Assembly: GCA_964036045.1 (NCBI GenBank)
Contig: OZ038384.1
Span: 29,617,771-29,681,770 of the forward strand
Source: Eutreptiella sp. 'Long Island Sound 2002'
Lineage: Eukaryota > Euglenozoa > Euglenophyceae > Eutreptiales > Eutreptiaceae
DNA: 64,000 nucleotides
Direction of reading: 5' to 3'
The notes beneath the pieces are model-generated. The model did not search any database. It saw only the letters and a program-made list of their open reading frames with translations, and was not told the origin of the DNA. Below are positions 27,183 to 60,985 of this stretch, in pieces. Every line of letters begins with the position of its first letter. The stretch's first letter is position 1. A program made the position numbers and the translations under genes.

Positions 27183-27375
27183 AAACACCCTTAAAACCAG
27201 CCCGGGTGGTTGTATGCCCAATTTTATGGGGGATAAAACCACCCCTTTTGGGGGATAAAACCACCCCTTTGGGGTGATATAACCACCCCTTATGGGAGAT
27301 AAAACCACCTCCCTTGTTAAAACCACCCCCTTCGGGGTGATAAAACCACCCCACGGTGGTTTTATACGACCAAAG
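27183..27375. repeat. ATAAAACCACCCC near-palindromic minisatellite
   Basis: Units of about 22 bp read GGGGGATAAAACCACCCCTT. Their CACCCC and GGGGTG ends can pair, so each unit is a potential hairpin. The same unit recurs at 28,870-28,940, 29,390-29,600, 32,510-32,695 and 34,995-35,215. Confidence 0.85.
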
Positions 27376-27915
27376 CAAAAAACGACACAACACAGCAAAG
27401 CAAAGCAAAACAATCTAAACCAAAGCAGTCTGAAGAGTGCAATGTGCGAACCGATACTTGTATGGCAGAATACCAGCACATCGCAAACCTTTATGGGGGG
27501 GGGGGGGGCAGTTCTGCTCAGTGACACAAATAAAAATCCCTCTCTGGCACCCTGGTGATCCCTGATTCCCTCATCCTTGATCTGTGACTCAAGACACATT
27601 CTCTGGAAGTGAAGCAAGTGCAAAACGGGGTACACAGACATCTACAGATCAACGGGGGGGATCAATTGTGGGTACTGATCAACTGAATGTCCCTACTATA
27701 GACAGAGTACTCGCACCACAGGCAGTTTCAACCATTAGTCCAGTAGATCTGCAAATGTTCAATCACTGTACATGTCCCCTTCTCGGTTGGGGTGCTCCAC
27801 TATTGTAAATAAATCAACTGCTGCAAACGGGGGGGGGGGGCAATTCTGCTCAGCGACACAAACAAAAATCCCTGGCCGGCACCCTGGTGATCCCCGATTC
27901 CCTCATCCTTGATCC

Positions 27916-28182
27916 TTGACTCACGACACATTCTCTGGAGTGAAGCAAGGTGCAGAACGGGGTGCGTTGACAAGTGAACACCAAAGGAGTGAATCTCAGC
28001 TGACTGGGCTTTGGTGTGCCTTCCAACGTGCATGGGATGATCTACTATTCAACTGGCTGAGACGTGAAATCGTTCTTCTTGTGATACACCATCCTGAATT
28101 CCTGTCTGCGCTGCGCTGCCCCTTGGGGCCAGGCTTCGTTCAGATGACCTTCAGTCACATAGACACAGCACAAAAAAATTAA
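27916..28182 (+). CDS. Small unrecognised open frame, conserved in the duplicate
   Basis: An 88-codon frame includes LWCAFQRAWDDLLFNWLRRE. It is retained at 33232-33498 with only a few amino-acid changes. Conservation between recent duplicates is expected even without function, so this is weak evidence. No family was recognised. Confidence 0.25.
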   Translation: MTHDTFSGVKQGAERGALTSEHQRSESQLTGLWCAFQRAWDDLLFNWLRREIVLLVIHHPEFLSALRCPLGPGFVQMTFSHIDTAQKN

Positions 28183-28935
28183 ATGTGTGCAACATCCCTG
28201 ACCTGTTGAAGTCCAGAAATGTGTGGAACCCGAGGGCAGGGGGCAAGAGGGCGGGGGTGGCCTAGGCGGGAGGGCAGGAGAGGAACTTACACATTTTTAT
28301 TTCTACATCCCACCCTTCTCTCTCGGACTCCTTGAGTGCCTGGGCGTCCTCTCCTCCTCCCCCCTAGTAGGGCAAGAAGGTGAAACCTGCCTACCCAGGC
28401 ACCCAGCCATCAAACAACACCTGTTTAACTAAGAAAGGATGGTTCGCCAAAAATGAAAAAATAAAATTTGCGAAGTGTGGCTGTAAGTGGCCCCCATGTG
28501 TTTAACTGACTTTTGTTTATTTCTTGCGAGGGGTTGGTTGCTTCGGGGAAGGGGTCGAGAGCATGGGGGAGGGGTTTGAGGGGGATGTGTGCCTGTGAGT
28601 GACTGATAGGGTCCCCCCCTAATGGGGGAACACGTAGCAACACACATGAAATGATGTCCTGCACACGTGAATAGCTGTCTTACAGCCACCAGAACCATGA
28701 AAACCCAATTCCCACTGGTAAAAAAGATTGTGCGAGAATTCAACCGCGGAAACAGGGGGCGGTTCTTGCACAAGGCGGTTGCTAGGCACGGGGGGCGGGG
28801 GAGGGAGGCAACCTCTATTCCGGGACTAAGTTTCCTAGTTCGCACTGAGATAGGCCGAGCCCCCCCCCCCCGGCCTATAGGAGGATAAAATCACCAAGAA
28901 TAGGGGACAAAAACCACCCCAAAGGGGTGATAAAA

Positions 28936-32480: not shown

Positions 32481-33231
32481 GGGGTGGTCCTGGGCATGAA
32501 CCCGACCCCAAATGGGGGATAAAGCAACCCTTAAAACCACCCCGGTTGTTTTTATGCGTGTTTTTATGGGGGCAGAAAACCACCCCTTTGGGGTGATATA
32601 ACCACCCCTTATGGGGGATAAAACCACCTCCCTTGTTAAAACCACCCCCTTCGGGGTGATAAAACCACCCCACGGTGGTTTTATACGACCAAAGCAAAAA
32701 ACGACACAACACAGCAAAGCAAAGCAAAACAATCTAAACCAAAGCAGTCTGAAGAGTGCAATGTGCGAAACGATACTTGTATGGCACAATACCAGCACAT
32801 CGCAAACCTTTATGGGGGGGGGGGGCAGTTTTGCTCAGTGACACAAAAAGATTCCCCCGCTGGCACCCTGGTGATCCCTGATTCCCTCATCCTTGATCTG
32901 TGACTCAAGACACATTCTCTGGAAGTGAAGCAAGTGCAAAACGGGGTACACAGACATCTACAGATCAACGGGGGGGATCAATTGTGGGTACTGATCAACT
33001 GAATGTCCCTACTATAGACAGAGTACTCGCACCACAGGCAGTTTCAACCATTAGTCCAGTAGATCTGCAAATGTGCAATCACTGTACATGTCCCCTTCTC
33101 GGTTGGGGTGCTCCACTATTGTAAATAAATCAACTGCTGCAAATGGAGGGGGGGGGACCTTCTGCTCGGCGACACAAACAAAAATCCCTGGCCGGCACCC
33201 TGGTGATCCCCGATTCCCTCATCCTTGATCC

Positions 33232-33498
33232 TTGACTCACGACACAATCTCTGGAGTGAAGCAAGGTGCAAAACGGGGTGCGTTGACAAGTGAACACCAA
33301 AGGAGTGAATCTCAGCTGACTGGGCTTTGGTGTGCCTTCCAACGTGCATGGGATGATCTACTATTCAACTGGCTGAGACGTGAAATCGTTCTTCTTGTGA
33401 TACACCATCCTGAATTCCTGTCTGCGCTGTGCTGCCCCTTGGGGCCAGGCTTCGTTCAGATGACCTTCAGTCACATAGACACAGCACAAAAAAATTAA
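33232..33498 (+). CDS. Small unrecognised open frame, duplicate of 27916-28182
   Basis: It has the same length and reading frame as its copy, with a few substitutions including Phe to Ile and Glu to Lys. Function is unknown and it may not be coding. Confidence 0.25.
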   Translation: MTHDTISGVKQGAKRGALTSEHQRSESQLTGLWCAFQRAWDDLLFNWLRREIVLLVIHHPEFLSALCCPLGPGFVQMTFSHIDTAQKN

Positions 33499-33996
33499 AT
33501 GTGTGCAACATCCCTGACCTGTTGAAGTCCAGAAATGTGTGGAACCCGAGGGCAGGGGGCAAGAGGGCGGGGGTGGCCTAGGCGGGAGGGCAGGAGAGGA
33601 ACTTGCACATTTTTATTTCTACATCCCACCCTTCTCTCTCGGACCCCTTGAGTGCCTGGGTGTCCTCTCCTCCTCCCCCCTAGTAGGGCAAGAAGGTGAA
33701 ACCTGCCTACCCAGGCACCCAGCCATCAAACAACACCTGTTTAACTAAGAAAGGATGGTTCGCCAAAAATGAAAAAATAAAATTTGCGAAGTGTGGCTGT
33801 AAGTGGCCCCCATGTGTTTAACTGACTTTTGTTTATTTCTTGCGAGGGGTTGGTTGCTTCGGGGGAGGGGTCGAGAGCATGGGGGAGGGGTTTGAGGGGG
33901 ATGTGTGCCTGTGAGTGACTGATAGGGTCCCCCCTTGATGGGGGAACACGTAGCAACACACATGAAATGATGTCCTGCACACGTGAATGGCTGTCC

Positions 33997-34791
33997 TAGG
34001 GGGGATCTTTGCAATGCGCGCGCACTGCGCGCGCACTGCACGCAAACTGCGCGCTACTTTTGGACTATGTTCCCCCCAAAGAGCTCCCAAGCACACCCGT
34101 TGGAAACGTCCTTAGAATTAGGTGACCCAAACTGCCCCGGCTCAAGAAAATTGCAAACTACCTTCCCTTAACATACCACACACATGTTGGTTACGATGCC
34201 CCAGTGCCACATGCGTGGTTTCGGTTGTGAGGAAGGGGCTCTCTCCTTTCCCTTGCGGTTAGAATCGGATTGGGGTTGAGATTGTGTAGCCACAGGGGGT
34301 TGCGAGGACCGAGAGGGTTGAGGGAGAATGGAGCTGGACGAAGCAACATCAGCCCGAGGGGGCGCAGTAACACAAAAAGCATTCAGTGTGCGTTGCCGCT
34401 TTTCTAGGACCTGCTGCGCATGTTTTGCTTGTTTCTTGGCCTCTCTCTCTCTCTTTTTTGACGGCGCATACGGACAATCTCAGGCTGCAGTGGTGGCGCT
34501 TCACTGCCGCCTTCAGAGAATGGTTGGCCATCAAGCCCGTCATGGAGAATTACACTTTCCTCATCCCTTGGTAAGTGGTTACCCTTGCCGAACCGCAACA
34601 TCTGCTCAATCACCTTTGGCAAACCCAAACAAAGGGGGACAAAATCAGAAGTCAAAACGTCCGCTAGGGGTCACCATGATGCCCCTAGGGGCCACTAGTA
34701 TCTCAAAGTATGGGTCTCTAGTACGGCCAGACGCCCAAATAGTTGCACTGCGCGCGCACTGCACGCGCACTGCACTTAAGGCTCCCCCCTA
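33997..34791. mobile_element. 791-bp inverted-repeat element with TA target duplication
   Basis: TA at 33,997-33,998 and 34,790-34,791 flank GGGGGGATC...GCTCCCCCC inverted ends. Copy 1 retains the unoccupied site (CTGTCTTACAGCC, about 28,676). Just inside each end are subterminal TGCGCGCGCACTG repeats in opposite orientation. The centre keeps a - strand protein-like piece with a basic segment (KKEREREAKKQAK, then VLEKRQRTLNAF). A TA duplication suggests a Tc1/mariner-like or similar superfamily, but the family is not determined. Confidence 0.85.
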
Positions 34792-42897: not shown

Positions 42898-43507
42898 CTG
42901 AAGTCAGGTAACCCCATACCCTATTTTGAGGTCACTGGGTCCGAATATCATGGTGGTTTCACGCAACTTGGCGGTATTTTTGAGAAAATCACCGATTTAA
43001 GTCGAAAAATGCACTCGATAGGAATCTGCAAAACTCGTTAAGATATGCCAAAACCATGATGTGGCACCCACAAATTCGGAACAAGCGACCTCAAAATAGT
43101 GGGGTGGTATACTTTGATTTCAGAATGGGTCCACAATGTCGAACTTCCATGGTGGAACGCCTAAAAAGTTCGGGGTACTTTCAGGTATCCTGAGGAGGAT
43201 ATCACCCGTAAGGTCACAAGTGGAAAGCCTAAGTTTTTTTTTTTTTGGGCGTTCCACCATGTTCAACATTGTGGACCCATCCTGAAATCAAAGTATACCA
43301 CCCCACTATTTTGAGGTCGCTTGTTCCGAATTTGTGGGTGACATGTCATGGTTTGGGCATATCTTAACGAGTTTTGCAGATTCCTACCGAGTGCGATTTT
43401 CAACGTAAAACGGTGCTTTTCTCAAAAATACCGCCACGTTGCGTGAAACCACCATGATATTCGGACATAGCGACCTCAAAATAGGGTATGGGGTTACCCG
43501 ACTTCAA
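42898..43507. repeat. Foldback element with about 260-bp arms
   Basis: The left arm (42,898-43,161) and right arm (43,247-43,507) are reverse complements with few mismatches. For example, TGGTGGTTTCACGCAACTTG on the left pairs with CGTTGCGTGAAACCACCA on the right. An 85-bp spacer with a T13 run separates them. No target duplication is obvious and no protein is encoded. It would form a long hairpin RNA if transcribed. Confidence 0.9.
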
Positions 43508-43984: not shown

Positions 43985-44180
43985 CGAAGTGGACCACAAG
44001 TGGGCCGGGTCGCTGCATAACCCCTACCGTCTGGGGGGTCCCCAACGCTTCACAGCGAGGGACAAGAATCTAAGTGGACCACAAGTGGACCCAATGGCTA
44101 CATAACCCCTGCCGTCTGGGGGTCCCCAACGCTTCAAAGCGGGGGACAAAATCAGAAATGGCCCATGAATGGGCCGAGTG
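43985..44180 (+). repeat. Satellite, about 85-bp unit
   Basis: Two and a half units contain CCACAAGTGGGCC, CATAACCCCTRCCGTCTGGG and GGTCCCCAACGCTTC. The period is about 85 bp (43,994, 44,079, 44,163). The unit is related to the satellite at 53.6-54.05 kb. Confidence 0.85.
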
Positions 44181-44224
44181 GCTACATGCATGCATGTTTT
44201 TCGGTAAAACTGGAAACAAAAATT

Positions 44225-48394: not shown

Positions 48395-48665
48395 GCGGTG
48401 CTATGCGGGTTGTACATGGCATGCCATGCAGACCACACAGAAACCGCTGAGCTGGCACTGTGCATGGAGGAGACACAGCGGAGGAGGATATCCCAAGTGG
48501 CGCGGCAGGCACTGGCAGGTAGAGGAAACATGAAGGACATGCCACGGGAGGCCATCATCAGGACGTGTGCAGTGAATACAAAAAGGCGCGGATTGCAGTT
48601 GGAGCCCACGAGAAGTGTGGTTGTCCCACATTCCATTGTCTACAGAGGGGACGTTTCTGTCCGGA
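48395..48665 (-). other. Segment resembling the start of another X-transposase unit (tentative)
   Basis: The - strand frame includes LFVFTAHVLMMASRGM. On the + strand, ACGTTTCTGTCCGGAAGCGC near 48,650 resembles ACGTTTCTGGCCGGAGGCGC near 56,317, at the upstream edge of unit 1. This suggests a third, truncated unit beginning here. The + strand also has an open frame (48398-48838), so the coding strand is uncertain. Confidence 0.25.
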
Positions 48666-48880
48666 AGCGCTCCGCGCGGCACAATACGTGCTGCGCGTGT
48701 TGCTTCATTACGCGCGGCCGCGCAGCACGTGCAGAACGCAAACAACACACGCATAACGCGCAGAACGCGCAAAACGCGCAGCACGGCGTTCTAGAGGCAG
48801 ACTTAGAAGCAGAGTTCCGGCACGCGCAAAACGCGTAGCACGTGGAGCACGTCACTATTGCACACGCGCGCACTTTTGGG

Positions 48881-48966
48881 GGGCCGCGTCCTCAAAGTTT
48901 GGGTATCCAGCCTACGCGGTTGTCCCCCAGGGTTCGCACTGGTCCCATGGGTAGGGATGGCACAGG
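48881..48966 (-). other. Highly conserved 3' block of unit 1
   Basis: This 86-bp block and 56,548-56,632 differ at only about five positions and one indel, although the sequence on either side is far more diverged. On the - strand it reads SLPMGPVRTLGDNRVGWIP just downstream of the transposase stop, in another frame. It may be a terminal exon, a 3' UTR element or a transposase-recognition region. Confidence 0.7.
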
Positions 48967-49024
48967 CTTGGCGGCCATGAAGTCCACGATTCCACAACGC
49001 CCGCCCTCCACCACCTTCTCCTTC

Positions 49025-50651
49025 CTAATCTTCGTCATCCTCCATGTCCTCGTCTTCTTCCCCGTCACTCTCCTCCTCCTCCTCACCCTCTTCCTCCTCA
49101 TCCTCCTCCCCCTCCTCCTCACTCTCCTCCTCCGTGTCATCCTCACTCTCCTCCCTCTCGCTTCCATCCTCCTCGGCCTCTTCGCTCTCCTCCTCCACAT
49201 CCGCCTCTACCACCCCGGTCACCCCATGTGCCACGGCAAAGCACCCCACATGGTACCACTTGCCACACCTACAACAAACGTAGTGGGTCTTGCCCCGGTT
49301 GCAATGGGTGCACACCCGGCGTCCCGGCATCCGCACCGGCACGTGGATGGGCTTGGCCACTGCCATTGTACAAAAGCGGCACCGGATAAGGTCCCACTGC
49401 CAGTCAAACATGGTACCCGTTTGGGCCCCCCCGAGGGACCGGCAAGTCGCGTGCGTTGACCACGGCGTACCGGAGGACGAACGCACGCACCGCATGCGAC
49501 CACGTCATCTGACGTCCCATCTGGCGCATCTGGAGCGCCATCTTGTTGACGTCATCCACCCCACGCGATAACTGGCGGTAGCTGGCGACCACCGGGTTCA
49601 CCTCATTCCCGCTGCGGCGATGCACGGGTCCGGCTTGTGGGAAGTGGACGTTCGTGAGCATTGGCACTACGCGGGGCGGCTTGTGACCCACCTTTGGGTT
49701 TCTGGAAAACCACCATGGCGTACCTCGCGTCGTCCACAGTGCACGTGGCGGTTTGTCCATCTCCTAGAAGTTCTCCTGCCCTGTCCACCCCGTACGTGGA
49801 GCGCTTCGTCATCATCAAGAAGGCGGGCCTCTCCGTAGCGAGGTCACGCGCTAGCTCGTGCGATCCAAAAAAGGAATCCGCCCAAAGGATGGTCCCGGAA
49901 GGGAGGAGACCTGCCCACATGGTCATGATCTGCTGGGCATTGAAGTTGCCCGCACTGTTGCCAAACCGCCGCAGGTGCCCGCGTCTACACATGTACAGGT
50001 ACATGTCCGGCACATACCCACTAATGGCATCGGCAAGGCAATAGAGCTTGATGCCGGTTGAGTGGGGCTTGCGGGCGATGAACATCCGTAGTGGGCCGGC
50101 ACGTATGCCTTTGTGCGGCACCACGGACTCATCCCCACAAGCCGCGCCACCCAACCGCCAGACACTAGCCCACTGCCCGTTGCACTCCTCCAGTAGTTCA
50201 ACAACGTCGGGCCGGATGTTACGGCGCAAGACGTCGTACTCCTTGCGGCTTAGCAATCGTGCCATGAAGGGGTTGTATAGTAACCCGTCCCGTTCCCAGA
50301 TGCCATCTACTTGCATAGGCCGTACCATGCCTAGTAGGAGGATGAAGGCGTTGTACCTACGGAAATGGAAGCCACCGCTAGAATCGATTGGGGCAAACAC
50401 TACAATCCATTGGGCCAACTGCTAGAATCAAGTGGGACACACCTTGGTACTAGGGGGATCAAGTGGGGAAGGTTCGCATGTCGGAGGGATGCCCGCTGTA
50501 ATTCCTGGATGGGAGCGAACATGTGGTCCCACACCTCATCCTCGGTGTACCCGACTAGTTCAGTTTGGCCTCGCCGGACTCCATGCATGATATTTGCTGC
50601 ACAATCCTCCAGGGGGAGTGCACCCGCATAAAGATTCATGGGAAATGGCAT
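49025..50651 (-). pseudogene. piggyBac-like transposase, copy 1 (broken)
   Basis: From ATG 50,651 the frame encodes LPLEDCAANIMHG and YTEDEVWDHMFAP, then after an 86-bp intron MVRPMQVDG. The DDE core follows: GDESVVPHKG (first Asp), KLYCLAD (second Asp) and LWADSFFGSHELA (third Asp). SRGVDDVNKMALQMRQ and a C-terminal zinc finger (CTHC...CCRCGKWYHVGC) come next, then an acidic Glu/Asp tail to 49,025. Frameshifts near 49,703 (between VVFQ and NPKVGHKPP) and near 49,455 (after YAVVNA) break the gene. Members of this family excise and insert at TTAA. Confidence 0.9.
50357..50442 (-). other. 86-bp intron present only in transposase copy 1
   Basis: On the - strand, AAG/GTGTGTCCC...TTCCGTAG/GTACAACGCC gives consensus GT-AG ends. 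Removing it joins PLVPR to YNAF, exactly as copy 2 reads without interruption (PLVLRYNAF). The intron contains the internal near-repeat CTAGAATC...GGGCMAAC. Confidence 0.85.
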
Positions 50652-51048
50652 TTTCAAAGAGCGGTGTGTCTGCATGACACCGAACACGGACATTCAGACT
50701 CCAGAGGCAGTACCGGAGGCAATGACCAGAACGCGCGACCCGCGCAGAACGCGCCAAACGCAGTGCAGAGGCACAGTCAGAGGCAACACGCAGCACATGT
50801 AGCACAGGGCAGTGTCGGTGTTTTTTTCTAGGGGGGGGGGGTTGAGCCTCAATTCCCCTACCACACAGCAATCTGCAGCGGAGGGGGGGGGGTTCAACCT
50901 CGATTCCCCGACCACAGAGCAATTGGCAACAGGTGTGGTATCTTTTTTTGCGGGACACCACCAGTTCGCTTGTGCTGGGCGCAGACCGGGCACTACATGC
51001 CCCATCGCCATAATACTCCATTATTGTACAGCCAAGAAACCGGTATTT

Positions 51049-52960
51049 CTACCAAATATTGCGACACCACCAGTCCGGCGCCTGTTGAGAAAAAGAGCCT
51101 GTCTGCGCTGAAACTTCCCAAAGGGGAACCCGCAAAGCGGGCCACGAACTCTGACGCCCCCGAGACTCGTCGGGGTCCGGCCATTCCGCACTCGGTTCCC
51201 CAAGCGGGGAGAAAAAACCCTCTGACCCCTCACCCTCCCACCCGTCCTCCCCCTCCCAGCCCTCCCACCCCTCTACAATTCTTGGACGTCGCCGTCCGTC
51301 ATCTTGCCCTCGGCAGCCGTCTCCGTATCTGGAGCCCCTTCCGGTTCGGCATGGCGTTCCGGGGAAACGGGGTGCTCTCCTCCAGAGGAGGGCAAGAATC
51401 GAGACACATGTAACGCGTAACACGCGCAGAACGCGCAACACACGCCGGGGCGGATTCCAGAGGCACAACAGAAGCATACAGGCATGACGCGCAAACGGCA
51501 GTGGCACCACAACGCGCACCTGCTCACCTGCCGGACCACCATCGCCCCTTACTAAGACCTCCGCACCCGCGGCAGCGCCTTCTGCAGCGCCTTCTGCGGC
51601 CTCCTTGGGCCCTTGTTTGGCCTCCTCACCTTTGGTCTCCGGGAGAAGCTTCTGCAGAACGCGAACAACGTGACGTCTCTCCTCCAGAGGCAACGCGCAG
51701 GCACGACATGTAGAACGCGCAGAAACGCAACACGCGCAACACGGAGCGCAGCGGGCTCTGGAGGTGACAAAGAAGCACACGCGGAGAACACCCAGCACAA
51801 CGATTTGCTGCCCTCCATGGCACCAGCGTTAGATCCTTCTGCTCTGATGCTCTGGGGCTGATCGTCCCGCGTCTCGCCGGTCTTTTGCGGATCCTGTGAA
51901 AACACAACGGGGGCCAGCCACGCACCTTCTTGATCTGTGCCACATCGGTGAACGGGCCGAGCAGCGCCTTCGGTTGAAGCTCGGGCGGCTCGCCCGTTGC
52001 GAAGGGGGGCGCGCCATAGGGCAGGGAAGGCGGGGGGCCCCGCGGCGGCGCGCCATGCGGCGGAGGCGGGGGGGGGGGGGGCGGTAGCAGCGGATAGGGG
52101 TGCCACTGCGGGTCTTGGTGGTACGACTTCTGGGATTAATTTGGGCATGAGGCGGCGGGTACTGCGGTGGCGGGGGGGGAAGGTGCGGGTACCCGCTCAT
52201 GTGAGGGGGCTCCCAATCGCAAGCGGCAGTCTACACAACGCGTAACACGGAAAGTCCTCCTCCAAAAGCGTGCGCGGAATCATACGTGCAACACGTGTAA
52301 AACGCGCATCACGCTACCATGGGCCTGCAGAGGCGCGGCGGAGGCAACAGCACACACACCACCGAAACCACAAAGCACACAAATACCCGCGGTTTCTTCG
52401 CCGCCAGCTCTCGGGTGCGCACCAGAGACCATGCTCCAGACGCCGGCAGTTCGAGGTTCCGTTCCTCTTCCAATTCGTATGCCATCAGGCCAGCCATCCG
52501 GACAAACCGGACGAACTTCTCTTGCAAAACGCGGAAAACGGGAATTTTCCTCCAGAGGCAGGCTAGAAGCAAACTCGCAGAATGCGCGCAACGCGCATGA
52601 CACGCGGCACGACTATGTAGAAACACAACAGAGCACGCGCGCAACACCTGCAAAACATCCGTTTCCATGTCAACGGTGTCTTCGATGCCGATTGCGCTTA
52701 CGTGATCGGCCCCGCCACCTCCACGCCCACCTCGCAGGCCCTCCATCTTCAGCTTGGCCAGATTAATACCCTCCGATGGGGGGCTGAGGTCCACCGGCCA
52801 TCGCGGTGCGGCGGCGCAACCCGTACAAACCGAAAGGCCCTTCAAAATCCCCTCCGCCACGGGGGGGACGTAGCAACGGGCCATACGCCGACTCCCTCCC
52901 ACTTTCCAGCCAATCTCAGGGTGGGGGGGGGGAGGGGGGGGGGGGCTGGGTCTGCGGGGG
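51049..52960 (-). pseudogene. Gene X1, distal exons
   Basis: Five exon-like blocks are separated by GCGTTCTG-type introns: about 52,930-52,648 (GINLAKLKMEGLRGG...DMETDVLQ), about 52,520-52,387 (FVRMAGLMAYELEEE), 52,230-51,792 (Pro-rich, then QSIRAEGSN), 51,651-51,529 (KLLPETKGEEAKQGPKEAA) and about 51,390-51,049. The last contains SAEWPDPDESRGRQ and ends near DWWCRNIW. It is homologous to the end of X2 (DEWPDPDEVRGRQ...QWWHR), which ties these exons to gene X. The clearest intron edges are 52,231-52,386 and 51,652-51,791. X2 lacks the middle blocks, so X1 is longer or X2 has lost them. Exon edges are inferred. Confidence 0.5.
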
Positions 52961-53620
52961 GGTCTGGGGCCGGCTGAAGGGGAGGGGGCCACCCGGACCC
53001 CAACATATATGGCTTAAAATGACCCCCTCATCCCGGTAGACATTTTTCCGGTATGTATGTTGGCAAAAAAAAATTGCAACGGGGGGGGGGGGCATGGTAG
53101 GTGGTACTTGTGTTTAAGGGCATAGCACCCCCGAGTCAATTCCCGGCCACTGTTGCCAGTGGCGCCCCACCCAGGCCTAACTATGCATGTTGCGAAGAAA
53201 GAGTGGATGTATGTTTCGTAACCCTTTGGAGGAGAGGGGGGGAAGGGTTTGCAACGCGCGCAATACGTTTTTTTAAAAAAAAAAGTTCTCTCCGCGCACT
53301 ACGTGCCCACAACGTGTGCACGTACTACGCAGTACTATGCCCACACACCGGTTGTACATCGTGTGCACCAAAGCGCCGCGTGCCCGTCATGGGGTTCTCC
53401 TCCTTGGGGCCTCAAAACATGGGTGATTGGAGTGGTGGAGTGGAGGAAGGTGATGGAAGGGGCGCTAAGAGCGCTTGTCCACCGGACGATCAAAGTAGTC
53501 CTCGTCGTCACTAGACAAATCGGTTGCTTCCCGGGTTCTCTTCTTTTTGGCCTCGAGAAGTGCGTCAAGGCGCTTCTTGTCTCTTGCCCGCTTCCCAGTG
53601 GACTTCAATGGGCGTGTCCG

Positions 53621-54056
53621 ACAAGTGGGCGGAAATGCTACATCACCCCTGCATTCTCGGGGATCCCCAAAGAAAGGGGGACAAAATCAGAATTGGATGC
53701 CTAACCCGTGCCTTTTCGGAGGCCCACAAGTGGGCGGAAATGCTACATCACCCCTGCATTCTCGGGGGTCCCCAACAAAGGGGTCAAAATCAAAGTGGGC
53801 CCACAAGTGGGCGGAAATGCTACATCACCCCTGCATTATCGGGGATCCCCAAAGAAAGGGGGACAAAGCCAGAATTGGATGCCTAACCCGTGCCTTTTGG
53901 AAGGCCCACAAGTGGGCGGAAATGCTACATCACCCCTGCATTCTCGGGGGTCCCCAACAAAGGGGACAAAATCAAAGTGGGCCCACAAGTGGGCGGAAAT
54001 GCTACATCACCCCTGCATTCTCGGGGATCCCCAAAGAAAGGGGACAAAGTCAAAGC
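53621..54056 (+). repeat. Dimeric satellite with 105/77-bp alternating monomers
   Basis: The element ACAAGTGGGCGGAAATGCTA starts at 53,621, 53,726, 53,803, 53,908 and 53,985. Spacings alternate 105, 77, 105 and 77, giving a 182-bp higher-order unit. The long monomer carries the extra TTGGATGCCTAACCCGTGCC. Open frames through it translate the repeat and are not genes. Confidence 0.95.
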
Positions 54057-54111
54057 AAAAAAAAGGCAAAAAAAAAAAACTGTCCCATGGTGTCCCTGAT
54101 CCTACCTACAT

Positions 54112-54192
54112 CCGTGCACATTACCCCCACTGGGGTTTGAACCCAGGTCCTCCAATTGCAGAGGCACTGCTTTACCACTAAGGTATGGCCCA
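54112..54192 (-). other. tRNA-like (SINE-type) sequence
   Basis: On the - strand, ACCTTAGTGGTAAAGC resembles a D-arm/A-box. CCTCTGCAATTGGAGG is anticodon-arm-like, and CTGGGTTCAAACCCCAG is a perfect T-arm with B-box. The acceptor strands (TGGGCCA and TGGGGGT) do not pair and the anticodon loop has 8 nt. It is therefore likely a tRNA pseudogene or SINE head rather than a working tRNA. Confidence 0.55.
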
Positions 54193-54389
54193 GATCAAAG
54201 ATATCTCTGCACAGGGGTGGTATTCATATTTTGTCCAATTTGGTTTTCATCCACTATTGGGTTCTCCTCCAAAAACTGAGCATTTTGAGTATAGACACAT
54301 GTGGTGGAAACCCATTTTTTCACCCTGTACTAAGTCAGGCAAAATTTCCTTAGGGCGCCTTCGGCGCCCATGGTCCGGCAGTTTCCAGC

Positions 54390-55206
54390 CAATTTCTAGG
54401 GAGGGAGGGGGGGGGAGGGGGGGGGGGGGGGGTCGGCGTAAAGGGTCCGGTGCCGGCATCCCTCCCGTGCCCTCCGCCACTTGCCGCGGGCTGCTCCAGG
54501 GATACCGCTTTTCGAAATACTCACGGGCTGCTGCAGCCGACTGGGCGTTCTTGGTCCCGCATCTCAACACGCTTTGCACGCTCACTGCCCGGACTCTGGT
54601 GTGCAGCAGAACTGCCAAACCGATCTCTTGCCTGGACTTGGGTTCCTCCGACAAGCACTCCTTGCAGTGCATCACCAATCGGCCCACGGTCGCATTGAAG
54701 TCCGTCTCCAAGATTCTCTGCATTGTGTCCAGATCACGGTCGTACCCGCCTTCATGGTGGAACTTCTCTGCTCTTGTCGGTGCGGCGCTAATGCTCTTCT
54801 GCGGGCCCTTCCCGCCGATCGCAAAGGACACGTGCCCAAGGGCCGGCTTGTCCTTGTCCTTCTTTTTCTTGGGCATCGGGCTCTGCTCCTCCGACTTCCG
54901 CTTCTTCTTCTCTGCCATTGTCTGCGGCTCCTGCTTGACCTCCAGCATGGTGGACCGTGCTGCCTTCGCGGAAGAAGAAGAGTGTTTCTCTGGCACAACG
55001 GGGTCCTCTGGCTCGTCCTCGGAATGCTCCTTCTTCGGTGTGCCTCAGGCCTGCTTCTTGCCATGGGGTGGCTCGTCGGCGTCTTCCTCCTCGGTCTCCT
55101 CCTCCTCCTCTTCGTCTCCGTCGTCTGCTGATGCCTCCTCGTCCTCTTCCTCCTCACTCTCTTCTTCTCCGCCCTCCAACCAGGTCCACAACCGGTTCGC
55201 TTGGAT
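54390..55206 (-). pseudogene. Gene X1, exon 4 (conserved core)
   Basis: The exon begins IQANRLWTWLEGG, then an acidic tract, a TGA at 55,045-55,047 and a Lys-rich nuclear-type segment (KKKRKSEEQSPMPKKKKDKD). The core shared with X2 follows: DTMQRILETDF, EIGLAVLLHTRVRA and QSVLRCGTKNAQSAAAARE, ending SSPRQVA near 54,478. Beyond this the sequence runs into a G-rich tract and the insertion. Helical core plus acidic and basic regions suggest a nuclear protein; function unknown. Confidence 0.65.
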
Positions 55207-55364
55207 CTGCAGAACGCGCAGCACGTGTAACACGATGGCGGCGCACCCAGAGGCGGAACGAGAGGCACATCACCGGAACGCGAAGAACGCGCAACACGCG
55301 CAACACGCGTATGACACGGGGCAAAATCACTTATAGATGCAACACGCAGCACGCGCACTACAAC

Positions 55365-55451
55365 CTTTGTGTACTCGAACCATCCATCCGGCTTGGCGCG
55401 GCAATCTTGGACTTTCGCGGGATCGCGCGGCTTCCCTTTCTTCGTCTTAAC
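55365..55451 (-). CDS. Gene X1, exon 3 (87 bp)
   Basis: The exon encodes VKTKKGKPRDPAKVQDC and then KPDGWFEYTK. The acceptor is CTGCAG and the donor AAG/GTTGTAG. Length and phase equal those of X2 exon 3. The downstream intron (55,207-55,364, 158 bp) has the GCGTTCTG/TGCCTCT composition. Confidence 0.75.
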
Positions 55452-55553
55452 CTGCAGGCAGTTGGTGGGGTAAGCAGCTTATTGAAAATGGAGACTAGGG
55501 ACTGTCACGGTGCAACCATACAAAACAACATGGCACGTGTCATGCATGGATAC

Positions 55554-55648
55554 TTGATATGCGATCACATTGATGAGGAACATCTCATCCTCTCGGCGAT
55601 CCTTGCTGCCGACCTTCTTGCGGTTCACCCAGGCGCCGTGCCACCCAG
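55554..55648 (-). CDS. Gene X1, exon 2 (95 bp)
   Basis: The exon encodes GWHGAWVNRKKVGSKD and then FLINVIAYQ. It lies between TTCACAG and donor GTATCC, in phases identical to X2. Introns 1 and 2 are 122 and 102 bp. Confidence 0.75.
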
Positions 55649-55770
55649 CTGTGAAGAAATGTGTGGCACGGCCCCAGAAGCAGAAACAAAAAGGCGAAAC
55701 GAACGGCGTCGACGTGGGAGACATCAAAATGCACGACACCCGTACTCCACCCCATTGAACAATCACATAC

Positions 55771-55900
55771 ATGTCTGCTGTTTGATCTGGAACACGATGA
55801 ACGCGTTGTGCTTCAGCGTGGCCGCGCTCCCCCAACAGCCCAGGTGGCCCCCCTTGGCGAGCCACTACTTGTGGCTTTGCGGCAAAAGGGGTGCGGGCAT
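55771..55900 (-). pseudogene. Gene X1, exon 1 (130 bp, TAG inside)
   Basis: From ATG at 55,900 it reads MPAPLLPQSHK, a TAG at 55,865-55,867, then WLAKGG and LKHNAFIVFQIKQQT. The aligned X2 residue is Gln, so TAG probably arose from CAG by C-to-T. The donor is GTATGT, as in X2. Confidence 0.7.
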
Positions 55901-56139
55901 AAAGAAAGGGCTGAGGTACAGGAGGACGCGTAGCTCGCGCAAAACGTGGGTTCTGGCCTCCAGAAGCATGGTGTTCGTTGCGTGCGGCACACAAAACACG
56001 CCTTGCACGGATATGCAACACCTGTTATTATTATTCGGTTTCCAGAGGCACACCTAGAATCGAAAGCTTAGAACACGTAACACGCGTAACACGCGCGGCA
56101 CACGGAGCACGAAAGCCAAGGTAGAGGCAACGGCACGAT

Positions 56140-56325
56140 ACGCTTCTCACATGGAGAACGGTGGAAATGAAAGAACGGATGCTTCCACGACGTCCGGCAC
56201 GTTCAAAAAACCCCCTGGAACAACAAAACTTCATGGATTCATTTTTCACGAACAAAAAACGTTGATTCCGTTCTGCGCGTGGTAGACAAAGGAATATTCC
56301 TTTGGCTACCATCTGTACGTTTCTG
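56140..56325 (-). other. Conserved upstream segment of unit 1
   Basis: It aligns with about 60,830-60,985 of unit 2. Shared landmarks include CAAAGGAATAT and, on the - strand, coding-like RGFFERAGRRGSIRS against RGVFEGARRNGTIRL. It could be a 5' exon or the terminal region of the element. It lies only about 220 bp from the 3' block of unit 2. Confidence 0.55.
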
Positions 56326-56329
56326 GCCG

Positions 56330-56525
56330 GAGGCGCGCTTTTGTGGCCCACGGTGTTGCACGTAAGGTTTCGAAAACGCGTGGAGCGCGCACAACGCGTA
56401 CAACACGTACACACCAAGTAACATGCACAGAACGCGTAGCACGCCGAACACGTGCCTCCAGAGGCACGTGCAGAATTGGAATACCGGACCGCGCAGAACG
56501 CGCAGAACGCGCAGCACGTCGCTTT
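56330..56525 (-). repeat. GCGTTCTG/GTGTTGCGCG-type repeat between units
   Basis: On the + strand this is a string of CGCGCAGAACGCGCAGCACG-like steps with one CCAGAGGCA. The same composition fills 48,660-48,860, 50,700-50,810, 51,405-51,500, 51,652-51,790, 52,231-52,340, 52,520-52,647, 55,207-55,364, 55,920-56,110, 58,320-58,480, 59,743-59,910, 60,430-60,500 and 60,690-60,800, mostly as introns of gene X or leaders of the transposase. Confidence 0.8.
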
Positions 56526-56547
56526 ACACAGGGGCGCACATCGAGGA

Positions 56548-56632
56548 GGGGCCGCGTCCTCACAGTTGGGTATCCAGCCTACGCGGTTGTCCCCCAGGGT
56601 TCGCATTGGTCCCATGGGTAGGGATAGCAGAG
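56548..56632 (-). other. Highly conserved 3' block of unit 2
   Basis: This is the counterpart of 48,881-48,966, with about five differences over 85 bp. It begins about 35 bp beyond the transposase stop. On the - strand it reads SLPMGPMRTLGDNRVGWIP, followed by NCEDAAPP. Confidence 0.7.
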
Positions 56633-56665
56633 GCTCCGTGTCCATGATCGTCTCGTTCAAGCCCC

Positions 56666-58291
56666 TCATTCCACCACACTACTCCTCATCTTCCCGTCCT
56701 CCTCATCCTCCTCGTCCTCCTCATCCTCCTCGTCCTCCTCGCCTTCCTCGTCCTCCTCGCCTTCCTCGTCCTCCTCGCCTTCCTCGTCCTCCTCATCCTC
56801 CTCGTCCTCCTCGTCCTCCTCGTCCTCCGCGTCCTCCTCGTCCTCCCCGTCCTCTTCGTCCTCCTCATGGTCCTCCTCCCACACCTCCTCGTCCTCCTCG
56901 TCTACCTCCATGTCCCGTGCGCCTTGCACACCTCCATAGCCATGTCCCGGTGCAAAGCACAACACGTGGAACGCCTTTCCACAACCGGTACATTCATGGC
57001 CGGTTCTTCCCCTCTTGCAAAGGTGGCACACACGCCGCCGTTGTGTCGCCACCGGCACGTGTACCTCTTGTCGGCGGGGGTGGGCAAAGTACCGCCGCCG
57101 CAACACTTGCCATTGCCATTCCCACATACTAGTGGTCTCCTTGCAAAGTCCCAATTGCCGGCAAGTTGCGAACACATTCACAACCGCGTACCGGAGCACG
57201 AACGCACGCACCGCGTGGGCCCATGTCATCTGGCGGCCAACCTGCCTCATCTGCAGGGCCATCTGGTTCCCACCATCGACACCGCGCGACAGTGTGCGGT
57301 ACGCCGCCACCACGGGGTGCACTTCCCGCCCGCTTCGCCGGTGAGGTGGTCCCTTTCGGGCAAACCACACATGCGTCAACATCGGCACAACGCGGGGGGG
57401 CTTGTGCCCGACCTTCGGATTCTTGTACGTGCACAAACTGTACTTGAAATCCGCAACAGTGAACACCGCCGTCTGCCCCTCCTGCACCTGCTCCCCGGCC
57501 CATGTCATGCCGTACGTGGACCTCTTCTTCATCATGAGGAATGCCCGCTTGTTGGCGGCCAATTCCTTTGCAAGGCCGTGGGACCCGAAAAAGGAGTCCG
57601 CACATAGCACCGTCCCCTCGGGCAGCAATGATGCCCACAACTTCATGATGTTTTTGGCATCAAAGTTTCCCGCCGCAGTGCCGTAGCGGCGTAGCCGGCC
57701 ACGTACACCGGTGTACAAATACATGTCCACCACGTACCCCCATGTTGCATCGGCCAGGCAATACAACTTTATCCCGGTTGGGTGCGGTTTTCAGGCAATG
57801 AACATTTTCAAGGGGCCCGCTAGCATCCCCTTGTGGGGCACCACGGACTCATCGCCGCAGGCCCCACCCCCCATGCACCACGCTCCCGCCCATTGGCGAT
57901 TGCAGTCTTCCAGTAGCGAGACGACATCGGTACGTAGCAACCGTTGCAGCAAGGAATATTGGCGACGCGTCAGCATGTTTGCCATATAGGGATTGTGTAA
58001 TAGGCCCTTGCGGTCCCAAACCCCGTCCACCTGCATTGGTCGCACCATCCCAAATAGAATTAGAAATGCATTGTACCTAAGTACTAGAGGTAGCAGGTCT
58101 GGCCTTCCGTGGTCCCGTAGGGCTTGGCATTGTAGATTCTCTATGGGTGCCATGATATGGTCCCACACCTCGTCCTCAGTATAGCCCATGAGCCAGGATT
58201 CCCCGGGCCGGATACCGTACTGGATATCGGCCGCACAGTCCTCCCGCGGGAGCCTATGGTCGTACAGCGGTGGTTGAAATTTTGGTGGCAT
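56666..58291 (-). pseudogene. piggyBac-like transposase, copy 2 (one stop)
   Basis: From ATG 58,291 one frame of about 541 codons runs to the stop at 56,666, broken only by TGA at 57,791-57,793. Copy 1 has Arg there (MFIAR). The motifs are YTEDEVWDHIMAP, GDESVVPHKG (Asp codon 57,851-57,853), KLYCLAD (57,749-57,751), CADSFFGSHGLAK (57,596-57,598) and LSRGVDGGNQMALQMRQ. The zinc finger CHLCKRG...CTGCGKAFHVLCF and an 80-residue Glu/Asp tail follow. The length is typical of piggyBac transposases. The acidic tail is encoded by a TCCTCCTCG microsatellite and is unusual. Confidence 0.92.
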
Positions 58292-58319
58292 CACAAACAA
58301 ATATTGTTGAGAAATGAGA

Positions 58320-58490
58320 CTCTGTAGAACACGCAACACACCAGTGGCAGTTCCAGAGGCAACTGCAGAGGCAGCAAAAGCGGAACGTGCAGAACGCGCA
58401 GCACACGCAGAACACGTAACACGACCTCCAGAGGCAGACACAGAAGCAGACACGTAGAGCGCGTATTACACAAATCACACGCAGGACAGG
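58320..58490 (-). promoter_or_regulatory. Leader or 5' intron of transposase copy 2
   Basis: Between the end of X2 and the transposase ATG lies a GCGTTCTG-type segment ending GTTCTACAG, with a GTGTGATTTG donor-like site near 58,480. A TATTTATTG sequence near 58,635 (- strand) could be a TATA-like element. This is position and motif inference only. Confidence 0.35.
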
Positions 58491-58670
58491 GGATGGGGCA
58501 ATGGGGGCGGCAACACGAACAAGTCAATTGTTGCTTTCTTGAAACGGTGTCCGTGCACCCTACATGGTCGACGCAGAGCAGCGGCCGCAGCCGCCACCAT
58601 TCATCCGAACGTCGAAAAAGCATTCACAACGCAATAAATACCGGCGCCGGTGCCCCAATGGAAGCGCCGC

Positions 58671-59742
58671 CTACCGATGCCACCACTGTGGGGTTGGCTG
58701 TGAATGTGCTTGCTGGGCCAACGGCACTGGCCTTGAAAAGAAGAGGGGTTGTGAGGTTTGTCTGCCGCGGACCTCATCGGGGTCGGGCCACTCATCCCCC
58801 TCCGGAAACCGTGTGTTTGAAAAAATGCTGCCTGGGCTGCACCAACTTAGGTCGGCCCGATTTACTAAATCTGCACTATCTCGTCCTTCTCCTCCATCTC
58901 CTCTCCCGCCGCTGCGGCTTCCTCCGGGTGCTCCTTTCCCATTTCCGCATCGCTCTTCGGCGCCCCAGCGCTCTCTTCCTTGGCTGATCAACCCGGTTGC
59001 GACTTGGCGGGGTGAGCTGCTGCGGTATCGCTCCTCAAACAGTTCTCTTGCAGCGGCTGTGCTTTGTGCATTCTTCGTGCCACAGCGGAGGACCATCTGC
59101 ACAGTGTACGCCCGCACGTCCGTCACCAGAAGCAGCGCCAGGCCCAATTCGCGGCGCGCTTGTGTTTCCTCGGCTAAACACACTTTGTAGTGTTGGCATA
59201 CTCGTCCGAGTGACACTTCATATTCCGACTCCAGGGTGCGCTGCATGACCTGCACATCGTTGTCGTAGGCGGCCCCGGCTTGGTACTTCTGCCCTCGGGT
59301 TGCACCTGTGGGCATCGTCCTGTGCGGTTCGCCTTCCACTGCGTAACGCACATGCTTACGCTTCTCCTCCACCTTCTTCTTGCCCTTGCTCTTCTTCTTG
59401 GGTGGACTCTTCGTCTTTTCCTTCTTCTTCTTGGACAGCTCCTCCGGCATTTGGCCTTGCCTCTGGCTTTGCCTCTGGCTTGGCCTTGACAGGGGTCCCC
59501 TTGGGTTGTGCGACCATGCGGGCAACAACCTCCAGGTGGGTGCTGCGGCGGGCGCGTTGGGCGAGGGAGGGCTCGTCCTCGTCCTTCAAACTGGCAGCAT
59601 CACTGCCCTCCTCGTCCTCCTCCTCCTCCGCCTCCCCTGCCTCCTCCGGCTCCTCTTCCTACTCCTCTTCCGACTCGTCCTCATCCGAACTCTCCGTGGT
59701 TCCCTCATCTTGGATCCACGTCCACAGCCGGTCGCGCAGAAT
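58671..59742 (-). pseudogene. Gene X2, exon 4 (conserved core and C-terminus)
   Basis: The exon begins ILRDRLWTWIQDEG, then an acidic tract with a TAG at 59,659-59,661. HLEVVARMVAQPKG follows, then a frameshift near 59,455 into the frame holding KKKKEKTKSPPKKK. The core VQVMQRTLESEY, ELGLALLLVTDVRA, QMVLRCGTKNAQSTAAARE and SSPRQVA matches X1 closely. The C-terminus DEWPDPDEVRGRQ...QWWHR matches the last X1 exon. No known domain was recognised. The gene ends about 380 bp before the transposase ATG. Confidence 0.7.
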
Positions 59743-59910
59743 CTGCAGAACATGCAGAACATGCAAGACACATGGAGGCAACCCCAGAGGCAATACCAGA
59801 GGAAGCGCGCAGAGCGCCGAGAACGCGCAAAACGCATAACACACAACCAGAGGCAGATCCAGAGGCAACGGAAAAGGGAACGGATAAAACGCACAGAACG
59901 CATAAAACAC
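59743..59910 (-). other. Gene X2 intron 3 (168 bp, repeat-type)
   Basis: The intron runs from GTGTTTTATGCG to GTTCTGCAG. It contains several GCGTTCTG steps and four TGCCTCTGG-like motifs. The homologous X1 intron (158 bp) has the same composition but does not align base for base. Confidence 0.75.
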
Positions 59911-59997
59911 CTATTTGTATTTCAAGTAGCCATCCTTCTTGTTGCGGACGCCTTGCACCACATGTGGCGCATGTGGCTTGCCCTTCGGGGCCTTGAC
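59911..59997 (-). pseudogene. Gene X2, exon 3 (87 bp, last codon TAG)
   Basis: The exon encodes VKAPKGKPHAPHVVQGV and DGYLKYK. Its last codon (59,911-59,913) is TAG where X1 has AAG (Lys). Exon length and flanking phases equal those of X1. Confidence 0.75.
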
Positions 59998-60084
59998 CTG
60001 TGAAAGGGTGCCACAGGCGGTAGGGGACAACAGGCAGCGCAAAATAGTGGTCACATGAACCGCAAACCCTTGACCGTGGTACAC

Positions 60085-60179
60085 CTGATACGTTGTGAGG
60101 TTCGTCAACCAAAATTCTTTCTCCTGCTTGTCCTTGGCCCCTTTCTTCTTCCGATTGACCCATCCGGCATGCCACCCCG
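60085..60179 (-). CDS. Gene X2, exon 2 (95 bp)
   Basis: The exon encodes GWHAGWVNRKKKGAKDKQ and FWLTNLTTYQ. Acceptor GTCGCAG and donor GTGTAC flank it. Introns 1 and 2 are 75 and 87 bp. Confidence 0.8.
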
Positions 60180-60254
60180 CTGCGACACAAGGGGGTGAGG
60201 AGGACAGCGGTGCAAGGCGAGAAGCGAGACGAAAACGGAAATACACACACATAC

Positions 60255-60384
60255 TGGTGGCTTGTTTAATTTGAAAGACAACGAAGGCGTCGTGCTTCAT
60301 TTTCTCCGGATGCTTCCACTCTCCCTGCTTCCCACCCTTCTGCAACCATTGAGAATGTGTGGCGGGGTACAGGGGTGCAGGCAT
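60255..60384 (-). CDS. Gene X2, exon 1 (130 bp)
   Basis: From ATG 60,384 it encodes MPAPLYPATHSQWLQKGG and MKHDAFVVFQIKQAT, with donor GTATGT. Alignment with X1 from the same ATG supports this start. An upstream GCGTTCTG-type segment (60,430-60,500) ending CTCTGCAG may be a 5' leader intron. Confidence 0.75.
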
Positions 60385-60829
60385 GGCTCCTGCACCATAA
60401 AAGCAGAGCGGCCTATGAATGTTGGGACAAAAACATGCTGCAGAGCACGTAGCACGCGTAGAACGGCTCCAGAGGCAACGTCAGAAGCGAAAAACGACAA
60501 CACACAAAACAACCAACACACGTGGGCAATGTAGCACCAAGGCAACCGTATAGGCAGAAGGCAATTGTCGTTGGAATACGCACGTTTCAGTTCCATTGGG
60601 AACGAGTGCAGGTGTGTGGCAGAGTACACAGGTGAAAGCATGGCAAAAAAAAAATCGGGTGTGGTATGATAGGTGTGAAGCACTTAGCCCCTGCAGAACG
60701 CGTAGAACGCGTAGGAAGACTTCCAGAGGCAGACTCAGAGGCACCGGACCGAAACACGCAGGACGCGCAACACACGCAGCACGCGTAGCACCAAGACAGA
60801 GGCAGAGGCACGAGGCAATTGTGCTTCTC

Positions 60830-60985
60830 TCCTCGGAAATGGTTGAATTGAGCTAAACGGATAGTTCCATTGCGTCGGGCACCCTCGAAAACCCCCCGGA
60901 AGCACAAAACAATCATAAAAGCAAAAACGCGACAAAAGTTCGTGCTATGCGTTCTACGCGTGTTAGCCAAAGGAATATGCACGGC
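60830..60985 (-). other. Conserved upstream segment of unit 2
   Basis: It aligns with 56,140-56,325. Similarity fades beyond about 60,985, which is taken as the outer edge of unit 2. A GCGTTCTG-type stretch (60,690-60,800) lies just inside it. Confidence 0.55.

Follow-up and report, generated by a model that had tools for sequence, protein, structure and literature searches.

A two-gene piggyBac-type transposon with ATAT target duplications and same-strand short-motif arrays in Eutreptiella

When a piggyBac-like transposase gene is found next to a second gene, do the two belong to one mobile element and, if they do, what might the second gene contribute? We took up this question in a stretch of 64,000 nucleotides of Eutreptiella sp. 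'Long Island Sound 2002' (contig OZ038384.1; the whole stretch analysed is called the window here), located at C7:29617771-29681770 of its own assembly (2.28 Gb in 2205 contigs). A preliminary description of this DNA had reported two units on the minus strand, each with a gene X and, after it, a piggyBac-like transposase gene, here T. Both units were confirmed in the window, with T matching PF13843; all features of the two units given below lie on that strand. We found that unit 1 and unit 2 are each one DNA transposon, in which short terminal inverted repeats (TIRs; TCCTTTGGCTA...) surround X and T. At a rough probability of 55%, we favour a reading in which the X protein binds arrays of short motifs in its own element, countering silencing or aiding transcription or transposition, and T uses the TIRs and the target ATAT.

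The units had been placed at 60985-56548 and 56325-48881; the two units stand, and their limits become 60974-56298 (unit 2) and 56293-48632 (unit 1) at the TIRs, with the homology between them starting at ATATTCCTTTGKCTAMCACGCG and ending at GTAGMCAAWGGAAT. Unit 2 is a decayed two-gene element running from TIR to TIR (TCCTTTGGCTA ... TAGCCAAAGGA), and unit 1 represents an anciently diverged second subfamily with imperfect TIRs (TCCTTTGTCTA ... TAGACAATGGA). Read without the target duplication, the TIR is TCCTTTGGCTA(CC), and across the family it measures 11-14 bp. The left flank of unit 2 is an ATAT (60975-60978; a 4-bp target duplication), a single ATAT (56294-56297) serves both the right side of unit 2 and the left side of unit 1, and the ATGT to the right of unit 1 (48628-48631) is perhaps a decayed ATAT. 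Only one ATAT between the units is what would be expected if one element had entered the target duplication of the other, and we infer that the head-to-tail pair arose in this way, by insertion of one element into the ATAT flanking the other. Within the window, a 17-base pattern of the left end (up to 3 mismatches) matches three of the four ends and nothing else (0.48 matches expected; a count of three was reached in 1 of 100 shuffles), and the fourth end was recovered with a 12-base pattern, which gives 14 matches at up to 2 mismatches (8.7 expected, alone not above chance) and five at up to 1 mismatch, four of them being the element ends. The ends were settled by further copies in the genome. 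Two more cases of like-oriented copies 7-8 kb apart are known from that genome (C20:41421297 and 41428535; C6:21525345 and 21533025), so head-to-tail clustering may recur.

The further copies were obtained with a 2-kb query spanning X and T, which gave 796 candidates, 40 of them scored, with 102 matches. T-side matches numbered 40 (window included), 27 of which had an adjoining X-side match; in copies other than the window the X-side and T-side matches lie ~1.3 kb apart, because unit 2, the one without about 1.3 kb of X that is present in other copies, has lost that stretch. We read 25 copies in all: 20 of the 26 X + T pairs outside the window, and five of the 13 seemingly T-only matches. Exons B, C, D and E of X, a conserved block (EWPDPDE) between the genes, and T follow one another in constant order in 20/20 pairs, some with stops, and X exon A was detected in 18/20. 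Four of the five seemingly T-only matches proved to have X exons 5' of T (in L029, X exons are upstream and exon D is absent), and the fifth, L033, has a short X remnant. The 18 copies with both ends are 5.78 to 6.69 kb long, mostly 5.9 kb, and have a mean pairwise identity of 0.969; the other two pairs, L010 and L024, retain the right end.

The conserved pairing of X with a transposase that had been proposed earlier was therefore upheld, X exons standing upstream of T in 24/24 loci read (20 pairs and 4 others) with the L033 remnant as the 25th, among loci found with a query that spans both genes and from which X-only loci could escape. Earlier doubt as to whether the terminal repeats enclose the transposase alone was settled the other way, given that they surround both genes in 18/20 copies. 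That two unrelated mobile elements, one bearing X and one bearing T, became neighbours by chance is, against these two counts, an explanation to which we give practically no credence. Of the earlier term 'composite element', the conserved partner gene stands, and the object is better termed one TIR element that carries two genes. The protein database gives a further, supporting-only indication: 33 of 49 T matches share a contig with a listed X match where ~6 to 10 would be expected, an expectation that assumed 1 to 1.75 Gb for a genome of 2.28 Gb and contigs that differ from those of the database. Searches there returned 118 matches to X in one case and 223 in another (120 listed); among the matches listed, all lie on 'ena' contigs or in the window itself, and none is in a named organism. 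L033 (C7:30951080-30952131) matches the window across the unit 2 deletion breakpoint at 98% and so shares the unit 2 deletion, an internally deleted form thus being present at at least two places.

The TTAA flanks that the preliminary description had looked to were absent (0/18 copies have TTAA at the element ends), the duplication being mostly ATAT. Equal four bases stand at both ends in 13/18 copies, as ATAT in 12 and as ATAA in one (L009), and this ATAA at both ends speaks for the four bases as target sequence, not as part of the terminal repeat. A 2-bp TA duplication within a strict ATAT would look alike, and here again L009 favours four bases. A target site duplication of AT with a TIR of ATTCC was ruled out, as the abutting junction in the window reads only GGA-ATAT-TCC. 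With ATAT counted as duplication the TIR becomes TCCTTTGGCTACC, which we compared with the CCYT start of piggyBac TIRs. An uninterrupted site was found at L033/L034, where a related element lies inside a T gene as CCCT-ATAT-TCCTTTGG ... CCAAAGGA-ATAT-GGC: the site is kept without interruption in 20/20 other loci (up to 3 mismatches), in 17 as the exact CCCTATATGGC. A comparison of L018 with L024 as an empty site is weak, with the ATAT region present and a left edge that differs by a local duplication.

T itself has PF13843 in both window copies (4e-15 and 2.9e-10; T at 56666-58291 with one internal stop in unit 2, and in unit 1 as exon 1 at 50443-50651 and a frameshifted exon 2 at 49025-50356) and in L012 (2.5e-21), where it is open over 522 aa with three acidic motifs and a Cys-rich end. 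In an alignment of P0146, a relative, to the solved transposase 6x67 (E 0.036), the motifs GDES, CADSFF and GVDG pair with acidic positions, which we take to be the catalytic residues of the DDD triad. The C-terminus follows the pattern C..C..G.T..EC..CGK.FH.LCF, for which Pfam zinc-finger matches stay below cut-off. The element thus resembles the piggyBac superfamily in PF13843, the acidic triad aligned to 6x67 and a 4-bp duplication, and perhaps in the Cys-rich C-terminus and a CCTT one base inside the TIR. It differs in that ATAT takes the place of TTAA, a second gene is present, the Cys-rich region is followed by an acidic tail, and there are motif arrays. Two marks of the superfamily, TTAA and a single transposase open reading frame (ORF), fail here, the latter through the presence of X at the 24 loci and its remnant at L033, and we therefore speak of a piggyBac-type element rather than of a canonical piggyBac.

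In a survey of animal piggyBac elements, single ORFs are described, mostly with TTAA and with few other duplications (PMC10813416). Our literature search, the coverage of which excludes most subscription journals and Repbase, found no piggyBac element with a second gene except the giant Teratorn, which likewise has a piggyBac-like transposase and extra genes within TIRs but spans 180 kb with a herpesvirus genome and uses TTAA (PMC10175614). KolobokP similarly joins a DDD/E transposase to a second protein and forms multimers, and differs in its transposase family, in a second protein that is a nuclease and in long terminal direct repeats (PMC9587614); a two-gene element in a baculovirus is listed without the word piggyBac (PMC4447894). 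Elements of the piggyBac type are in wide use as one-protein, TTAA-specific tools. An ATAT target, a second gene in constant association and arrays that look like protein-binding sites widen the range of the superfamily.

X was modelled in 16/18 copies and is open in three (L012, L022 and L026; in L022, exon F is followed by TT in place of GT), L012 being the copy in which X and T are both open. It comprises 650 aa from seven modelled exons (130, 95, 87, 951, 129, 372 and 189 b), running from MPAPLYPATHSQWLQKGG... to EIVQI and a stop. The N-terminus is basic and rich in Trp; acidic and Lys-rich stretches, a conserved core and a Pro/Tyr-rich part follow, and the tail is acidic. A PDB search with the N-terminus found no match, and one with a relative of the D-E region from the database gave a match at chance level only (E 0.73). 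As X and T lie on one strand in fixed order and an acceptor-like TTCTACAG stands directly before the T start, the two might be thought exons of one long transposase with X as its N-terminal part. This is very improbable: the X stop precedes T in both subfamilies (EIVQI-stop in L012, L022 and L026, and DVQEL-stop in the model of unit 1), T starts with an ATG of its own in each of them, preceded by codons that differ, and a junction of the EWPDPDE block with T would not be in frame. With an own stop of X before T in both subfamilies, separate genes are the simplest reading of the models.

Between unit 1 and unit 2 protein identity is 51% in the X core and 53-81% in T, and the proportion of synonymous differences (pS) is 0.66-0.93, saturated or nearly so, against a nonsynonymous proportion (pN) of 0.14-0.34, in X exons and T alike. 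Saturated pS with low pN means that the homology of the units is old and selected, not a chance likeness, and that X and T have long been maintained as a pair; judging by these values, X is under purifying selection between the subfamilies. The 18 recent copies give another picture, with differences per codon position of 0.0152, 0.0167 and 0.0199 in X and 0.0115, 0.0115 and 0.0160 in T, and 0.0195 in non-coding DNA; differences so nearly even suggest that recent copies mostly drift after insertion (in the codon alignment, as in the motif counts below, L028 was taken from position 989, a shorter piece than from its left end at 250).

What would X act on? Clusters of a 9-bp repeat (consensus TGCGCGTTC; degenerate form YRCGYGTKY), accompanied by TTGCCTCTGGA boxes, occupy the subterminal regions, the region 5' of X, the longer X introns and the stretch directly 5' of T. 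In unit 2 they lie at 60687-60796 (5' subterminal), 60443-60524 (5' of X exon A), 59739-59913 (X intron C-D), 58318-58465 (directly 5' of T) and 56374-56522 (3' subterminal), and in unit 1 at 55924-56106 (5' region), 55203-55357 (X intron C-D), 52527-52661 (D-E), 52236-52381 (E-F), 51657-51803 (G-H), 51402-51446 (H-I), 50720-50810 (5' of T) and 48716-48846 (3' subterminal). A scanning matrix trained on the units themselves (110 matches, 10 on the opposite strand) was used only for this placement of clusters. A 17-mer, TGCGCGTTCTGCGCGTT, at up to 3 mismatches has 24/24 of its window matches in the units, on the unit strand (0.1 expected), and TTGCCTCTGGA at 1 mismatch has 14 in the window, all in the units (12 on the same strand and 2 opposite within exon D; 1.7 expected). 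The degenerate 9-mer occurs 40 times forward and twice in reverse in the two units, and 17 times in the rest of the window; none of the 40 forward matches falls in modelled exons, which make up 6280 of 12347 b, and 300 Markov resamplings of the 9-mer count reached a mean of 2.6 and a maximum of 8. The 18 further copies hold 434 forward and 6 reverse matches, with 17 in 35.4 kb of flanks.

Such arrays might have no binding protein and be splicing signals or short repeats that expanded passively, and X might be a passenger. Some introns do end in the motif (TTCTGCAG directly precedes exon D in both units and, in unit 1, exon H as well), so that part of it may serve splicing, and X has no known domain; however, arrays are also found outside introns, the motif is concentrated in the element and has been retained in both subfamilies past saturation, and X shows purifying selection between them. 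We consider this explanation improbable on balance. More weight, if still short of likely, goes to X as a transposition cofactor like En/Spm TnpA, joining the ends for T via the arrays, chiefly the subterminal ones, with no role in silencing. Some DNA transposons require a second DNA-binding protein, and arrays are indeed present at both subterminal regions; yet they also stand in introns and between the genes, and they run nearly all in one direction, not inverted at the two ends as end synapsis predicts. The En/Spm (CACTA) elements with TnpA and TnpD share with the present one two proteins of which one binds short repeated motifs, and differ in having subterminal motifs, another transposase family and another target duplication.

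A second association of a partner gene with arrays comes from the element nested in the T gene at L033/L034, which represents a third lineage (3557 b; C7:30947507-30951063; L033:1-2164 and L034:6508-7900). It has the TIR of the first kind and an ATAT duplication, and its transposase of 453 aa carries PF13843 (3.3e-21) and is ~40% identical to T. A different gene precedes it on the same strand, consisting of an ORF with a terminal acidic tract and a probable second exon with a stop; between the first part of this ORF and the N-terminal part of X there is no similarity, and matches to X in the element are chance matches only. Its arrays consist of other motifs, GACCGGTC (18 times; a palindrome and so without orientation) and CTAAAGTG (11 times, all forward), where 0.03 would be expected for each. 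The modelled exons (1974 of 3557 b) contain neither motif. Both are likewise missing from 10.8 kb of flanks and from the 18 first-kind elements, and GACCGGTC occurs twice in the whole 64-kb window. TIRs and target thus stay constant with a common transposase and arrays vary with the partner gene, for which a partner protein that binds the arrays is an economical explanation.

On the favoured reading, T would recognise the TIRs and cut at ATAT, and X would be a DNA-binding protein for the same-strand arrays of the X-T spacer, the longer introns and the subterminal DNA; bound along the element as a coat, X could protect it from host silencing, as VANC does, or support its transcription and transposition. 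VANDALs are Mutator-like elements. Their VANC of VANDAL21 is the closest described case: in Arabidopsis it is associated with a motif of nine bases that forms dense arrays of one orientation in non-coding DNA including introns and is highly enriched in the element, VANC binding and methylation loss are experimentally established, and another VANC family uses other motifs (PMC5735166). The present element is like it in the partner gene, the dense one-way short-motif arrays in non-coding DNA and their concentration in the element, and differs in that T is of PF13843 and not Mutator-like and that binding by X is a prediction from sequence. We tentatively suggest, with some doubt, that a piggyBac-type clade with an ATAT target may have evolved self-recognition independently of VANDALs, the partner gene and private arrays of each lineage being exchanged jointly with transposase and ends unchanged. 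If this is true, sequence-specific counter-silencing by transposons would be convergent and modular. The element also provides an independent case for asking whether transposons commonly protect themselves via a self-encoded sequence-specific binding protein, as VANDALs are described to do. L012, with both genes open, makes the reading testable.

Several points weigh against the role proposed for X. T or a host factor could just as well be what binds the arrays; X has no Pfam family at cut-off and no recognised DNA-binding domain, and two AlphaFold models of it are poor (pLDDT 58.6 and 43.8). There is no clear array in the short X introns A-B and B-C, nor in the T intron of unit 1, and the degenerate 9-mer pattern was picked post hoc from the sequence. 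The gene models were built from splice signals and homology, and relatives of the unit 1 type of X were seen only as database ORFs. Furthermore, 5/18 copies have differing four bases at their two ends, and the third lineage consists of one copy.

Both window copies are decayed. Unit 2 is broken by stops in X and one stop in T, and unit 1 by stops in X, a T spread over three frames and a 1.6-kb insertion in X exon D; introns of the window genes are GT-AG. X exons A, B and C are equally long in both units (130, 95 and 87 b). In unit 2 they lie at 60255-60384 (ATG MPAPLYPATHSQWLQKGG...), 60085-60179 (GWHAGWVNRKKKG...) and 59911-59997, exon C terminating in a stop codon in this copy, and are followed by exon D at 58985-59742 (acidic, Lys-rich and conserved core, with a stop and with the tail deleted) and by the EWPDPDE block at 58672-58803, perhaps a 5' exon of T. 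The unit 1 counterparts of A to C are at 55771-55900 (one stop), 55554-55648 and 55365-55451; exon D has its first part at 54470-55206 (one stop) and its rest at 52648-52850 (ILKGLSVCTGC...), the same join being found in database relatives, as is exon E (52387-52518). Exons F to I (51273-52230, as 52230-51926, 51893-51802, 51651-51520 and 51374-51273, the last with the stop) were placed by splice signals only, with the reading frame of exon F uncertain, and the EWPDPDE block of this unit is at 51052-51193. The nested insertion (52861-54469) has an 11-bp duplication, GTGGCGGAGGG. Within it are tracts rich in C, tandem repeats of 77/182 bp with relatives at 43991-44187, and a stretch resembling tRNA A and B boxes by eye, in which ARAGORN finds no tRNA.

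An 80-bp non-coding block 3' of T in unit 2 (56550-56629) is 95% identical to unit 1 at about 48967-48880 and stands out from the diverged alignment, the next best stretch of which reaches 66/80. As to a structured RNA, the block has no Rfam match (one regional match elsewhere, E 0.21, is below cut-off), and RNA structure z-scores of 0.04 to 1.17 support none.

Elsewhere in the window, where ARAGORN finds no tRNA genes, large arrays of diverged repeats cover 15562-18103 on both strands, and a direct repeat of 1.4 kb (27246-28682 and 32564-33998) is 97.8% identical. A palindromic repeat of ~608 bp at 42899-43506 is 85% identical to its own reverse complement, and an ORF at 851-1459 with a Patatin-like N-terminus (GGGAKG and GTSMG motifs by eye) is perhaps an exon of a host gene.

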